From a virus, in the IMG/VR virus record IMGVR_UViG_3300007735_000791, positions 23,102 to 87,101 of that record: DNA of 64,000 nucleotides; one strand, 5' to 3'. Below, one piece after another: positions 10,866-23,361 of this stretch. The notes below the pieces were generated by a model. It had not been told where the DNA came from, searched no databases, and saw only the letters and a list, made by a program, of their open reading frames with translations. Position numbers and translations under genes: made by a program. Numbering within the stretch: the first letter of the stretch is position 1; every line of letters begins with the position of its first letter.

Positions 10866-10919
10866 GCAGGGGGACTGGAGGCGGAAAGGAGGTAGAAAAA
10901 CCTCCAGCCCACACCCTGC
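10866..10919 (+). terminator. Nested hairpin after the tail module
   Basis: Outer arms GCAGGG (10866-10871) and CCCTGC (10914-10919) enclose arms CTGGAGG (10875-10881) and CCTCCAG (10901-10907). A competing inner hairpin pairs GGAGGT (10888-10893) with ACCTCC (10900-10905). There is no clear U-tract, so it may be a factor-dependent terminator or an mRNA-processing/regulatory structure rather than a classic terminator. It separates the tail and replication modules. Confidence 0.5.
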
Positions 10920-10920
10920 T

Positions 10921-10942
10921 CAGCGTTCGGACAAGGACGCTG
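10921..10942 (+). repeat. Small inverted repeat before the initiator gene
   Basis: CAGCGT and ACGCTG flank a 10-base loop, 36 bases upstream of the winged-helix gene. It could be an operator or a leader hairpin. Confidence 0.35.
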
Positions 10943-10977: not shown

Positions 10978-11490
10978 ATGGCAAAAAGTAAGTTTTCAGG
11001 ACCGTTTCTACCCTTCCCACGTTGGGTACTTCAATATCTTGGCAATGACTCAATCAGTAAAGTAGTATTATTAACTGTATTACTTTACATGGATGCTGAT
11101 ACCCAAGAACTAACAACTTCGTATGGACACGTAGCCAAATTGACTGGCTATTCGCGCAGAACCATCATTCGTTCTGTCAACCGCTTGGTTTCTGCTGGTG
11201 TCCTTATTCGTAAAAACCGTTTGGGCAAGCATGGAAACATCAGCAATAAGTACATCGTAAACTTCAACAATCCATCTACCCTAGTGTCTGCACAGACACC
11301 ACCTAGTGTCCTCACTGACACCACTGGTAGTGACACGCCTGACACCACCCCTAGTGTCCCCAGTGACACCCAATCAAGAATAACAATAAACAAGAATAAC
11401 CATAACAAGAATCTCTCTTTCAAGAAGGAGAAAAAAAAGGACGACATTACTAATGGTTACGTTATAGACGAAACGCTATTGCCAAAATGA
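10978..11490 (+). CDS. Winged-helix replication initiator-like protein (lambda O analogue)
   Basis: 170-aa protein. Residues about 20-85 form a helix-turn-helix/winged-helix domain (KVVLLTVLLYMDADT, then TSYGHVAKLTGYSRRTIIRSVNRLVSAGVLIRKNR) of the type in phage replication initiators and DnaD-like proteins. A Ser/Thr/Pro/Asp-rich linker (residues about 100-140) is encoded by an iteron-like DNA repeat cluster, followed by a lysine/asparagine-rich segment. Being the first gene of the replication block and lying just before the helicase loader and DnaB, it resembles lambda O, including the origin inside the gene. It overlaps the next gene by 4 bases. Confidence 0.65.
   Translation: MAKSKFSGPFLPFPRWVLQYLGNDSISKVVLLTVLLYMDADTQELTTSYGHVAKLTGYSRRTIIRSVNRLVSAGVLIRKNRLGKHGNISNKYIVNFNNPSTLVSAQTPPSVLTDTTGSDTPDTTPSVPSDTQSRITINKNNHNKNLSFKKEKKKDDITNGYVIDETLLPK
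11281..11431 (+). other. Candidate replication origin inside the initiator gene
   Basis: About 90 bases (11281-11370) contain nine GTGTC/GACAC pentamers: CTAGTGTC at 11281, 11303 and 11351, and GACACC at 11295, 11317, 11341 and 11365, plus GACAC at 11332. Several pair as inverted repeats (GACAC-N6-GTGTC at 11295-11310). They are followed by an AT-rich tract with a perfect 10-base direct repeat CAAGAATAAC at 11375 and 11391 and a partial copy at 11405. Iterons followed by an AT-rich unwinding region within an initiator gene is the lambda ori arrangement. Confidence 0.5.
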
Positions 11491-11849
11491 ACGACGACTG
11501 GGGAAAGGCTCTAGGCTCAGATGAGGAGAAACCGATGATTACTAAAATGTCCACAAAAACAAAAAACACAACTATGGCTTTGGTTTACCACTTCAACAAA
11601 TCCATAGAGTACCCAATGAACTTTGAAGTAAACGCTTTGGCTTTGTCCAAAACATTTAAGACTTTGCGCGACAGTGGGGTTTCCTACGTTGACATGTACA
11701 ACATGATTGACAGGTTCTTTTATGAAATTAAACAAAAACCATTGCCAAAAGACGTGGCTACATGGGCAGCATTTATTAAACGACGAGACGATTTACTTCA
11801 GTGGGTGACAGCGAACTCTTCCGATTCCGACGTGTCGGAGTGGAAATGA
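11487..11849 (+). CDS. Unknown protein of the replication block
   Basis: 120-aa soluble, mostly helical protein (VNALALSKTFKTLRDSGVSYVDMYNMIDRFF). Starts at the ATGA overlap with the initiator-like gene and ends in an ATGA overlap with the next, so all three are probably co-translated. Position suggests a replication accessory or the separated C-terminal part of a replisome organiser. No family recognised. Confidence 0.5.
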   Translation: MNDDWGKALGSDEEKPMITKMSTKTKNTTMALVYHFNKSIEYPMNFEVNALALSKTFKTLRDSGVSYVDMYNMIDRFFYEIKQKPLPKDVATWAAFIKRRDDLLQWVTANSSDSDVSEWK

Positions 11850-12064
11850 AAAAATGGTGGTTTTTCATAAAAGCATTTAACATTATTTTTAAAGTAAACA
11901 CTGTTAAACAAGAAGAAGAAGAAATTGAAATGTATGTTTGTTCTTTGTGCGGGAGCATATACTTAGACAAACATTCGTACCTTACGCATTATAAAGTTGA
12001 TGCGTGCACAGCACCAATGTATATTTTACCTAGCGACCCACTACACATAAAGGACACACTATGA
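11846..12064 (+). CDS. Small C2HC zinc-finger-like protein
   Basis: 72-aa protein, started at the ATG overlapping the upstream stop. A basic/hydrophobic N-terminus (MKKWWFFIKAF) precedes YVCSLCGSIYLDKHSYLTHY...DAC, giving Cys-x2-Cys, His and a final Cys as plausible zinc ligands. It overlaps the helicase loader by 4 bases. Probably a nucleic-acid or protein-contact module; function unknown. Confidence 0.5.
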   Translation: MKKWWFFIKAFNIIFKVNTVKQEEEEIEMYVCSLCGSIYLDKHSYLTHYKVDACTAPMYILPSDPLHIKDTL

Positions 12065-12699
12065 CAACAGGATGGAAAGGTGCTCGTTACTGGCGTAACA
12101 GGCCGATTGAAGAAAGATTAAGTAACTTACGAGTTCCACGGCGATTTGAATCAATGACATTGGAGTCATACGACAAGTCAACTGGAGACCAAGATGTTTA
12201 CTATGCGGTTATGACTTGGTTAAAAAATGCAGAAGAAAACATCGCCACTGGAACTGGTTTGTATTTGTTTGGTGGCACTGGTGTAGGTAAAACACATCTT
12301 GCCATTGGTTTGTTAAAAGAAGTAGTTGCCAAAGTTCAAATTAGTGGTTACTACATACCAACCACGACATACATGGAAATGATGTATGACGAACTAAACA
12401 ACGAAGGCACTCTTCCAGAAGAGTATGAATCTCCATACACATCAAAATACTTACGAGCAGTTTATGACGTAGTTGTTCTTGACGGACTAGGAGACGAAAA
12501 CGACACAGACTTTACACGCCGTTCAATCACCAATTTATTAAATCAAAGAATTAACAATAATCTTCCAACAATTATTACAAGCCTATACAACCCTAAAAAG
12601 TTATCTTTGCGTTACGGAGAACGCTTTGTTTCTATTTTGCAATCGGCGTGTCGGCTTGTTCCTGTATCGGGAACGGACCAACGCAATGCAGGGAAATGA
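12061..12699 (+). CDS. DnaC-like AAA+ helicase loader
   Basis: 212-aa ATPase likely to load the downstream DnaB helicase at the origin. Walker A FGGTGVGKTH at residues about 70-79, Walker B VVVLDGLGDE around residue 140, and a sensor-like TIITSLYNP around 178. The length and the N-terminal linker match DnaC/IstB-type loaders. It lies one gene before the DnaB helicase, in the same order as lambda O-P-type blocks. Confidence 0.85.
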   Translation: MTTGWKGARYWRNRPIEERLSNLRVPRRFESMTLESYDKSTGDQDVYYAVMTWLKNAEENIATGTGLYLFGGTGVGKTHLAIGLLKEVVAKVQISGYYIPTTTYMEMMYDELNNEGTLPEEYESPYTSKYLRAVYDVVVLDGLGDENDTDFTRRSITNLLNQRINNNLPTIITSLYNPKKLSLRYGERFVSILQSACRLVPVSGTDQRNAGK

Positions 12700-13117
12700 C
12701 ATTGGTGAGTACTGGCAAAAAGGACAAGGCGTAGTTTTTGAAGGAGTTCTGACACAACTGTCGGACAGCCTTATTGCTAATTTTCATAAACAACGAGGTA
12801 ATTGGAAAAAGTATTTGTCTTTATCCAAACCATGTGAGTTGCCGTTAAAAGCAATGATAGATAGTTACAGCCGATTGGGTATAGCAACAGATGTTTATAC
12901 TTTTATAGACAACGATGCAGTTGACGCAATTAATGATTGGTTGCTGAGGAAAGGTATCTCGGTGGGTGTAATGTATTACCCCTCGGTGGAAGAACTAGCA
13001 TACGATTTAAAGTTTCAACGTTCAGTTAGGACAATATATGTTGAAACGCAAGAGCAAGCATCTATCATTGGGATACGTTCTCACGTAGTGGACACAAAGA
13101 AAGCGTGGATTAATTAA
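12686..13117 (+). CDS. Unknown protein between helicase loader and helicase
   Basis: 143 aa from the ATG at 12686, which gives a 14-base overlap with the loader; the first upstream ATG would overlap it by 74 bases. The C-terminal half (SVGVMYYPSVEELAYDLKFQRSVRTIYVE then IGIRSHVV) looks like an alternating alpha/beta fold. It ends in a TAATG overlap with the helicase. No family recognised. Confidence 0.5.
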   Translation: MQGNDIGEYWQKGQGVVFEGVLTQLSDSLIANFHKQRGNWKKYLSLSKPCELPLKAMIDSYSRLGIATDVYTFIDNDAVDAINDWLLRKGISVGVMYYPSVEELAYDLKFQRSVRTIYVETQEQASIIGIRSHVVDTKKAWIN

Positions 13118-14373
13118 TGTCAAGTTCAGAGCACTTACTAATTAGCAAGGTAATCACTGACAACGAAATCTTGCCCGTAATTGAAGCAGGGGTTAAACCA
13201 CAGCACTTCTCAGCGCATTGGTCAAATGTTTGGGAATGGGTTGTTACCTATTGGCGAGAACACAACGCCGTTCCTTCTGAAAGAGCATTTAGTCAAGAAC
13301 ATGCCAATGTCTCTTTGGTGGACTCTTCCCGTGAGCAATTCTCCAACCTAATTGAGGAAATGCTTGAGTCATACCGTCACCAGAAACTTGTAGAAACGCT
13401 TGCAACAGCGGTCCCTATGCTGAACAACAATTTGACTTCAGAAGCGTTACACGCGCTTACAGAGGGCTTACAGACCGCTTCAGCCGATGTTGCCAGGTTA
13501 CGCGACATCAACCTCATTGAAACTTGGGAGCAGCGAGTACAACGTTACCAATTGATGAAAGATACACCTAACGCCATCCGTGGAATACCAACTGGATTTG
13601 GTGGATTGGACAGGATTACATCTGGGTTACGACCACAGCAGTTGATTACTTTTGTTGGTGAGGCAAAGAAGGGCAAATCTTTGATTACCTTGATTATGGC
13701 AAACGCCGTACACACTCACGGTAAGGTTCCGCTATACATCTCGTTTGAAATGAGTGCAGAAGAACAATCAGCACGATACGACGCTCTTATTGCTGGAATA
13801 TCGCACACAAAAATAATGCGAGGAGACTTAACCAATGCCGAAATTGAACGCATTAGAAAAGCAGTGTCAGTGCGAAAGAACATGCACCCATTTATTTTGT
13901 CTGAAGACATTTCGTCTTTGACCACAGTCAGTGCAATTGCAGGAAAAGTACAGCAACACAAACCTGATTTGTTAGTAGTTGACGGTGTATATTTGATGGA
14001 TGACGAACAAGGTGAGCCAAAAGGTTCTCCACAAGCACTCACCAATATCACTAGGTCGTTAAAGCGCTTGGCTCAACGATTTGATATTCCTATTGTCGGT
14101 ACAACTCAAGTGTTGAGTTGGAAGATTGGAAACCGAAAAAGCAGGCAGATTACTGCTGAAGCCATTGGGTATACATCGTCTTTTGCTCAAGACTCTGACC
14201 TAGTGGTTGGCGTAGAGTCAGACCCTGATATTGAAAACCAAGCAATCTTGAGAGTGGTGCTTGCACGTACAGCACCAAAAGGCGAAGTAAGGATTAATTG
14301 GGATTGGAACAACATGGACTTTTCAGAGGTAGAAGATGACACTAACGATAGCAATGACAACTGGTATTACTAA
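13117..14373 (+). CDS. dnaB: DnaB-like replicative DNA helicase
   Basis: 418-aa protein that unwinds DNA at the replication fork. The N-terminal about 115 residues are helical, as in DnaB. Residues about 140 onward form the RecA-like motor: Walker A FVGEAKKGKS around residue 181, ISFEMSAEE around 208, Walker B LLVVDGVYLMDD around 287 and a QVLSWKIGNRKS segment. The family usually has about 420-470 residues. It overlaps the primase gene by 38 bases, indicating coupled expression of helicase and primase. Confidence 0.88.
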   Translation: MSSSEHLLISKVITDNEILPVIEAGVKPQHFSAHWSNVWEWVVTYWREHNAVPSERAFSQEHANVSLVDSSREQFSNLIEEMLESYRHQKLVETLATAVPMLNNNLTSEALHALTEGLQTASADVARLRDINLIETWEQRVQRYQLMKDTPNAIRGIPTGFGGLDRITSGLRPQQLITFVGEAKKGKSLITLIMANAVHTHGKVPLYISFEMSAEEQSARYDALIAGISHTKIMRGDLTNAEIERIRKAVSVRKNMHPFILSEDISSLTTVSAIAGKVQQHKPDLLVVDGVYLMDDEQGEPKGSPQALTNITRSLKRLAQRFDIPIVGTTQVLSWKIGNRKSRQITAEAIGYTSSFAQDSDLVVGVESDPDIENQAILRVVLARTAPKGEVRINWDWNNMDFSEVEDDTNDSNDNWYY

Positions 14374-15265
14374 TTTTCGTGACGTCCTTGACGCAATAGG
14401 CGTTGATGTTCGCCGTGAGTCTGGCAATGAAATCATTGGCTGTTGTCCAGTACATGCAAAACGAACTGGGAAATTAGACAGGTCTCCATCATGGTCAATG
14501 AACGCTTCTACAGGATTGTGGATTTGCCATTCATGTGGGTCTCGTGGAAACTTACCGCAGTTGATTGCCGAAGTTACTGGAAGTTACGAATCCGTATCCA
14601 CAATATACAACTTGTTAATGAACTCTGGAATGGAGCAACTAACACGTCCTAAGTTGGAAAAGGTTAAATCAGATGTGGACTGGGAAATGTATATGTCTTT
14701 TGACAACCCTCCATACGAGAAGTTGTTAGAACGTAATATCAAAGCGGTAGTTGCCGAAAGGTTTGGTATCCGATGGGATACGTCAAAACAAGCGTGGATT
14801 ATTCCAATCATTTCTGCATCAGGAGATTTGATGGGATGGCAAGAGAAGTCACCAAAGGGAGTTCTCAATCAACCTGTAGGTGTTTCTAAATCAGAAACTT
14901 TGTTTGGTATTGACCGTTTTAATATACGAACAGCAATTTTAGTAGAGTCCCCACTAGACGTAGTTAGGGTTGCTTCAGCATATTCAGGAGTACAATGTTT
15001 AGCCAGTTTTGGAGTACAGGTCAGTAAAAAACAAATAGAACTATTAAGCAATGTTTGTGATTATTTAATTGTGGCGTTAGACAATGACGAGGCTGGAATG
15101 ACGGTAGGTAAAAAGTTGTTTAAGCACCTTCCTACTTTTCGTGAAGGTATTAAATGGCTTTACTACGGTCACACTAAAGCAAAAGACTTGGGTGAAATGT
15201 CAGACGAAGAAATTGGTATTGCCATAACAAAAGCAACTGTTCTTCCTTGGTGGGTAAATGTTTAA
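14336..15265 (+). CDS. DNA primase, DnaG-like (zinc finger plus TOPRIM)
   Basis: 309-aa primase. A CHC2-like zinc finger lies at residues 36-67 (CCPVH, then CHSC). A TOPRIM-like core follows at about 195-250: ILVESPLDVVR with the acidic Glu and YLIVALDNDEAG with the DxD-type metal site. It lacks the C-terminal DnaB-binding domain of cellular DnaG. The start at 14336 is preceded by GAGG at a good distance; an in-frame ATG at 14354 is an alternative. It overlaps DnaB upstream and the SNF2 helicase downstream. Confidence 0.82.
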   Translation: MTLTIAMTTGITNFRDVLDAIGVDVRRESGNEIIGCCPVHAKRTGKLDRSPSWSMNASTGLWICHSCGSRGNLPQLIAEVTGSYESVSTIYNLLMNSGMEQLTRPKLEKVKSDVDWEMYMSFDNPPYEKLLERNIKAVVAERFGIRWDTSKQAWIIPIISASGDLMGWQEKSPKGVLNQPVGVSKSETLFGIDRFNIRTAILVESPLDVVRVASAYSGVQCLASFGVQVSKKQIELLSNVCDYLIVALDNDEAGMTVGKKLFKHLPTFREGIKWLYYGHTKAKDLGEMSDEEIGIAITKATVLPWWVNV

Positions 15266-22469: not shown

Positions 22470-23361
22470 GTTAACTAGCGCAGACTTAGAGAGTCTTAAA
22501 AAGAATCTCAGAACAAAAGGTCGGTTGTTACCCATTGTTGCTGCTCAAGTAGAACTTGAAAACAATGAGAACACTCGCGAACGAGATACGGACTACTTGC
22601 ACCCCAGTCAAATTTGCAAACGCGATTGGTGTCCACGTTCATCAATGTACGAAATAAACAAAGAACCAGCAGACAAGGTTAAATCACACTCGTTTCAAAC
22701 CTTAAACATCTTTAGAACTGGTCATGACATTCACGAAAAGTGGCAAGGTTGGTTAGAGCGTTCTGGATTGATGAAACAATCAGAACTAAACATCTTTAAC
22801 GAAGAGTGCCATATAAAAGGAAATGCAGATGGTTTGATTGAAGATGCAATGGGCGAAGCCATACTAGAAATTAAAAGCGTAGGTGTTGGCACCGTTCGCA
22901 TGGAAAACATAGATTTGTACAAAGAGTATGACTCAGGAACTATAAGCATGGACGAGTTGTGGAAAAGGATAAGACAACCGTTTAGCACGCACCTTCGTCA
23001 GATTAATTTGTACATGTATGCAACAGGTGTACATCAAGGCATTATTTTGTACGAATGGAAACCAACTCAAGCAATTAAAGAGTTTGATGTTACTTATCAA
23101 CCAGCGTTGATTGAACATATTCTTGCCGCCGCACAACTTGTCAAACAACACCTAGAACAAGGTACTATTATTGACCGCCCTACTTGGGCAACAGAAGACC
23201 ATAAAACTTGTAAACAATGTCCATACAAAACAACATGTTGGAGGAACGATGCTGATAGACGACAGACTGACAAACAGCCAAGCAATGAAGAACTTTCTGG
23301 AGAAGTTTTCTCTTCCAGACAGGCCGAAAGGAAACTTACCAGAGATTCCAAAACATCTTGA
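22462..23361 (+). CDS. Cas4/RecB-like exonuclease with Fe-S-type cysteines
   Basis: 299-aa PD-(D/E)XK nuclease. The cysteines ICKRDWC near residues 52-58 and CKQCPYKTTC near 250-259 make a four-Cys iron-sulfur pattern as in Cas4/AddB. Nuclease motifs are IKGNADGLIED near 119 and AILEIKSVG near 137, with a QINLYMYATG motif (Q-x-x-x-Y) near 177. Likely processes DNA ends with the RecA protein. No CRISPR gene is near, so it is the phage-type enzyme. Its last 113 bases overlap the next gene. Confidence 0.8.
   Translation: MAELTSADLESLKKNLRTKGRLLPIVAAQVELENNENTRERDTDYLHPSQICKRDWCPRSSMYEINKEPADKVKSHSFQTLNIFRTGHDIHEKWQGWLERSGLMKQSELNIFNEECHIKGNADGLIEDAMGEAILEIKSVGVGTVRMENIDLYKEYDSGTISMDELWKRIRQPFSTHLRQINLYMYATGVHQGIILYEWKPTQAIKEFDVTYQPALIEHILAAAQLVKQHLEQGTIIDRPTWATEDHKTCKQCPYKTTCWRNDADRRQTDKQPSNEELSGEVFSSRQAERKLTRDSKTS

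Follow-up and report, generated by a model that had tools for sequence, protein, structure and literature searches.

A probable lambda-like replication origin inside the winged-helix initiator gene of an uncultured phage

The initiator gene and its surroundings

The window analysed here is a 64,000-nucleotide stretch (positions 23,102 to 87,101) of the IMG/VR virus record IMGVR_UViG_3300007735_000791. Its putative initiator gene occupies positions 10978-11490 on the + strand (513 bp) and encodes a protein of 170 amino acids. This protein matches the HTH_36 profile (Pfam PF13730) with 34.5 bits, against a gathering cut-off of 25, and three PHROG families of the 'replication initiation' or O-like type (phrog_428, E = 1.5e-14; phrog_270, 1.7e-14; phrog_678, 2.8e-12). 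No match to Phage_rep_O (PF04492, the Pfam family of lambda O) or to RepA_N (PF06970) is found at E values up to 1. An AlphaFold model places a winged-helix DNA-binding domain at about residues 16-97, with the helix-turn-helix and wing predicted at good confidence. The recognition helix (residues 60-73, RRTIIRSVNRLVSA), assigned from the modeled helix and an alignment with CRP, is encoded by positions 11155-11196 of the + strand. Structural superposition with CRP and other winged-helix proteins gives Z scores of about 8, which speaks for a shared predicted fold and not for function, and Foldseek returns the winged-helix N-terminal domains of RepA_N-type proteins (4pql and 5kbj). Residues 101-161 have pLDDT values below 50, and the linker encoded by the repeats and the A-rich tract described below is predicted to be disordered.

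Comparisons with named phages return no blastn match to the origin region and, for the initiator, a single weak tblastn match, to Pectobacterium phage ZF40. A search of Rfam with the origin region yields one chance low-complexity match and nothing else.

Downstream of the initiator lie, in order, a 120-amino acid gene, a small ORF, a DnaC-like loader, another ORF with no assignment, DnaB, primase, an SNF2-type helicase and a family A DNA polymerase. The loader (12061-12699, + strand) is recognized by phrog_50 (E = 4e-38) and IstB (5.9e-7), the DnaB-like replicative helicase (13117-14373, + strand) by DnaB_C (1.1e-30) and phrog_19 (1.6e-61), and the DnaG-like primase (14336-15265, + strand), with a zinc ribbon and a Toprim domain, by phrog_47 (6.6e-40), Toprim_2 and Zn_ribbon_DnaG. 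The first-pass annotation had named a winged-helix gene followed by a loader, DnaB and primase. The profile and model evidence bears out all four, but the 120-amino acid gene and the small ORF precede the loader. This small ORF (11801-12064) encodes a C2H2-like zinc-finger pattern (CSLCG...H...) and is also present in relative L015.

The 120-amino acid gene (11487-11849, + strand) overlaps the initiator stop codon and occupies the same place in most relatives. Its product has a conserved DDWG start and is predicted to form a helical bundle. No homology is found between it and the C-terminal parts of fused initiators, and no identity is found among PHROG families. Structural matches to its model are to common helical bundles (best Z 6.8; the C-terminal segment of DnaD, Z 5.8). 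It is possible that this protein is the initiator's partner or its split-off C-terminal part. By analogy rather than homology, it may carry the loader-contacting function that resides in the C-terminal part of lambda O.

A conserved leader RNA structure is located just upstream of the initiator gene (10866-10942, + strand). Its long first hairpin (10866-10919) contains GAAAGGAGGT, which is invariant and forms a perfect Shine-Dalgarno-like motif not followed by a start codon, and its second hairpin (10921-10942) carries a GGACA loop. The fold has a z score of -4.6, and ten base pairs are changed on both sides among 15 relatives. Its covariation score of 0.261 compares with 0.108 in shuffles and is reached by none of 500 shuffles. 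The leader has no match in Rfam.

Palindromic iterons and an A-rich tract

Eight exact GTGTC/GACAC pentamers cluster within the initiator gene, at positions 11284, 11295, 11306, 11317, 11332, 11341, 11354 and 11365. Outside this cluster, no 100-bp window of the 64 kb holds more than two. The first-pass annotation had counted nine such units, treated as separate pentamers. The clustering of repeats inside a winged-helix gene is confirmed, but the ninth unit is obtained only by admitting the one-mismatch GTGAC at 11330, and the true unit is a two-fold symmetric iteron, since the pentamers pair up to form four 16-bp palindromes of the form GTGTC-N6-GACAC. These are iteron 1 (11284-11299, GTGTCTGCACAGACAC), iteron 2 (11306-11321, GTGTCCTCACTGACAC), iteron 3 (11330-11345, GTGACACGCCTGACAC) and iteron 4 (11354-11369, GTGTCCCCAGTGACAC), none of them assigned to a strand. 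Iterons 1, 2 and 4 are kept in relatives. The left half-site of iteron 3 is the one-mismatch GTGAC, which is GTGTC in some relatives. Start-to-start distances are 22, 24 and 24 bp, such that iteron 1 is read in a different frame from iterons 2-4. Lambda-type origins likewise carry several, typically four, inverted-repeat iterons at steps of about 20-24 bp within the initiator coding region. With one mismatch allowed, the 16-mer has one further copy in the 64 kb and one further in the 87-kb record, and the record contains no second array.

When codons for the same peptide are redrawn from the usage of the phage's replication genes, none of 5000 sequences contains four palindromes. The region's own codons, when shuffled as a weak control, yield four near-palindromes 5% of the time.

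Directly 3' of the last iteron, the position expected for a lambda-type origin, is an A-rich tract (11371-11440, + strand) that is 71% A+T, with 56% A on the + strand. It carries the 10-base direct repeat that the first-pass annotation had seen in an AT-rich tract, CAAGAATAAC, at 11375 and 11391; the CAAGAAT core of this repeat recurs at 11406. In stability, the tract falls in the lowest 1.4% of 40-bp windows across the 64 kb, although its own gene contains a less stable stretch. Its composition, stability and synonymous constraint make it a probable DNA unwinding element.

Both elements are kept as DNA rather than as protein. Eleven close relatives share 98.4% of nucleotides in the half-sites, compared with 65.5% in the spacers of 6 nt and 85.3% in the stretches between iterons. 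Synonymous divergence, measured as the use of a different codon among sequence pairs sharing the same residue, is 0.423 across the winged-helix part, drops to 0.144 over the iterons and reaches 0.037 in the A-rich tract, where codons 137-144 show no synonymous difference in 430 comparisons. Furthermore, each of the 51 related genes that carry at least three iterons includes one or more spacings that are not multiples of three. The repeat thus crosses reading frames and is not a protein repeat.

One close relative (L015, also listed as L318; 4301-4348) has a single iteron, and its initiator is frameshifted. An identical contig from a sister sample (L047, 1-8) starts exactly inside the last iteron, so the single iteron is probably an assembly collapse. 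Metagenome assemblies seem to break or collapse at iteron arrays.

Distribution of the array and covariation with the recognition helix

A motif-blind search, using the winged-helix profile alone, recovered 80 IMG/VR loci of the window's family, of which 77 could be tested with an array detector that is given no sequence and scores tandem palindromes only. Nearly every relative has the array: it is detected in 99% of these 77 loci and in 73% of 78 loci from a sister family, with the loci within one family representing related phages. The same detector finds arrays in 0% of dinucleotide shuffles and in 0% of upstream and downstream flanks.

A search at the DNA level alone, for paired adjacent copies of GTGTC-N6-GACAC, finds at least 119 stretches in viral contigs, and the reversed half-site control CTGTG-N6-CACAG has no match there. 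Among the matches listed, array-containing ORFs form 51 clusters, of which 34 match HTH_36 and three match Phage_rep_O; up to 37 of the 51 match a PHROG replication-initiation family. The same pattern occurs in 44 stretches of bacterial genomes, where 10 of 37 array-containing ORFs match HTH_36 and two match RepA_N. Several others resemble unrelated repeats, and the pattern is less telling in bacterial genomes than in viral contigs. By reading of the sequences, initiator-like bacterial cases come from Actinobacteria, α-, β- and δ-Proteobacteria, Planctomycetes, Acidobacteria and Ruminococcus. The Ruminococcus examples are RepA_N initiator genes with in-gene tandem GTGTC-N6-GACAC (L176, 5794-5881; L182, 6003-6138).

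The detector was also tried on initiator genes of 16 named phages. Lambda, P22 and most others examined have in-gene palindromic iterons followed by A-rich DNA, with a variety of half-sites. In lambda, three copies of ATCCC-N9 are called and a fourth is visible; P22 has four copies of TTTAC-N7. Arrays of TTAGC occur in mEp213, SEN34 and Erwinia phage 49, and of GTCAC in Sf101. Other half-sites are GTCTC (N7), TTACC (KO-TP1), CGGGA (HK225), GTGCC-N6 (PAJU2), TTATC (IPK), CTGTG/GTGCC (ZF40) and TACCC (Decurro and Kels). Microcystis phage Mvi-Yong1342-1 and Vibrio phage p42 have different short repeats only and no convincing lambda-like array.

Recognition helices and iterons were compared in the sister family, whose members resemble the initiator of phage Decurro. 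The set comprised 47 representatives under 85% identity, all with detected arrays (73% detection in this family), and 476 residue-base pairs. Residues are numbered as in the window's initiator and bases are counted from the dyad. Residue 65 with base d5 ranks first of all pairs (z = 11.9), with K accompanying T (17 cases) and R accompanying A (14) or G (6). Residue 64 with d7 is next (z = 8.3), with Q accompanying T and R accompanying G. Residues 59 and 62 also score highly with d5, and the third rank is held by an unrelated-looking pair, residue 45 with d9.

The association persists when changes are placed on a tree from which the helix columns were left out. With branches treated as independent, there are 19 branches with a change at d5 and 21 with a change at residue 65, of which 14 are shared (p about 7e-8); residue 59 likewise shares 14 same-branch changes with d5. 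The test of d7 with residue 64 is weak (five shared changes, all between Q-R and T-G; p = 0.011), and two other columns rank higher. Residue 65 aligns with Arg185 of CRP (mature numbering), an agreement that was not sought beforehand. Base d5 is the equivalent of the CRP-site position read by Arg185 and Glu181 of CRP. Helix and iteron therefore change together in the sister family, which is strong indirect evidence that they fit one another.

In the window's own family the helix is nearly invariant, and its link to the iterons is loose. A relative with R61 changed to I (L322) has GTATC half-sites, and relatives with NKR helices (L376, L378 and L386) have GTGAC. As a counter-case, a relative with R61 changed to S (L323) keeps GTGTC, and four others (L345, L353, L367 and L388) combine the common helix with mixed GTG(T/A)C half-sites. 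The K65-T5 and R65-A5 rule of the sister family fails here because the window has R65 with T5. The covariation in the sister family and the two natural changes in the window's family support, indirectly, the proposal that the iterons are bound by the product of the gene in which they lie.

A candidate origin and its known counterparts

The array and the A-rich tract very likely constitute the phage's theta-type replication origin, similar to lambda ori, located inside the gene of its own initiator and bound by that gene's product. The first-pass annotation had proposed such a layout, and in-gene position, palindromic iterons, a 3' A-rich tract and downstream replication genes all agree with lambda ori. 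The order of the replication genes also agrees with an origin at this site. By analogy with lambda at each step, dimers of the winged-helix initiator would bind the four palindromic iterons, placing one recognition helix in each half-site and the two about one helical turn apart. Adjacent dimers might then build an O-some-like complex that strains the A-rich tract immediately downstream until it opens. The DnaC-like loader would place phage DnaB on the opened DNA, and primase would follow.

Tandem palindromes for a CRP-like winged-helix dimer also resemble operators. The array could serve the initiator or another phage regulator as a site for repressing or pausing transcription of the replication operon, with the origin elsewhere. 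Protein bound inside the transcribed region could indeed block transcription, and an array that is bound would look the same as one that fires under everything measured. This explanation is nevertheless improbable. The array lies mid-gene and is always followed by a constrained A-rich tract that an operator would not need, and the 87-kb record offers no second array. Moreover, lambda, P22 and their relatives share both the layout and its place, and in lambda the in-gene array is the replication origin (PMC7466680, PMC3985674). The same array could additionally serve in autoregulation.

It is less probable still that a host protein, and not the encoded initiator, recognizes the iterons. The same half-site does occur in initiator genes of phages from several phyla, as expected if a widely conserved host factor were involved. 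However, half-sites in the sister family change with the recognition helix on a tree built without it, and the Escherichia phages lambda, mEp213, HK225 and N7 have differing half-sites within one host genus. Last, the idea that the repeats arise incidentally from a repetitive Ser/Val/Asp/Thr linker, with no role as DNA, draws on the low-complexity peptide (PSVLTDTT...PSVPSDT) and the near-palindromes of the own-codon shuffle, but it is scarcely tenable, being largely refuted by the shift of frame after iteron 1, the spacings of the 51 related arrays, half-sites that are kept while the residues between them change, synonymous sites that are frozen in and after the array, and the 5000 trials with the phage's codon usage.

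An origin within its initiator's gene, the reading preferred here, is an already known kind of layout. What looks new is the recurrence of one half-site in winged-helix initiators across bacterial phyla, together with a partly readable code linking helix to iteron. A literature search found no description of a general iteron or helix-iteron code; subscription papers were mostly outside its coverage, so this is no proof of novelty. There is perhaps an even chance that GTGTC-N6-GACAC is a recurring origin address of many winged-helix initiator subfamilies and phyla, accompanied by a compact code (65-d5, 64-d7 and 61 with G at d6). If so, an initiator gene alone would suffice to locate the origin and, in part, to predict its half-sites. 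Because initiator and target share a gene and co-vary, every new sequence would be a matched pair, and viral metagenomes would thus contain a large number of naturally matched pairs of protein and DNA specificity. Phage origins are seldom mapped, and here a candidate is placed at the level of bases, with a predicted reader protein, in an uncultured virus. The rules by which phage initiators read DNA, and possibly cross-reaction of origins between phages, become testable from sequence.

Several known systems share parts of this arrangement. CRP sites have the form TGTGA-N6-TCACA. The N6 spacer of the window's iterons gives the same 11-bp spacing between centers, with GTGTC as half-site where CRP has TGTGA. 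Likeness to the CRP/FNR domain extends to the helix, in which SRRTIIR aligns with SRETVGR of CRP; unlike CRP, the window's protein is a replication initiator with no cAMP domain. RepA_N plasmid initiators (pSK41, pTZ2162 and PLE RepA) have a comparable winged-helix N-terminal domain and use semi-palindromic iterons (PMC7145576), although the window's protein does not match their Pfam family.

The initiators of Decurro-type actinophages (Arthrobacter phages Decurro and Kels, and IMG/VR relatives) also have an HTH_36-type winged helix followed by in-gene palindromic iterons, with typical steps of 19, 24 and 23 bp. Many share the window's GTGTC half-site. Across the group, half-sites vary with the helix and include GTGTC, GTGAC, GATGC, GCGGT and others; Decurro itself has two copies of a TACCCC palindrome. 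These proteins are longer than the window's initiator, with the C-terminal part fused.

Lambda ori consists of four 19-bp iterons in the middle of gene O, bound by dimers and flanked by A+T-rich DNA (PMC3985674, PMC5043065, PMC7466680). The window's phage resembles lambda and P22 in having palindromic iterons midway through the initiator gene, a 3' A-rich tract, and loader and helicase genes downstream. It differs from lambda in encoding its own DnaB, primase and DnaC-type loader. Unlike lambda O, its initiator is only 170 amino acids long, and the next gene may stand in for the C-terminal part of O; the protein matches O-like PHROG families but not the Pfam family of lambda O. Half-sites also differ, being ATCCC/TCCCT with N9/N7 in lambda, TTTAC with N7 in P22 and GTGTC with N6 here, whereas the steps between iterons are much alike (20, 24 and 23 bp in P22, mEp213 and Sf101; 22, 24 and 24 bp in the window's phage).
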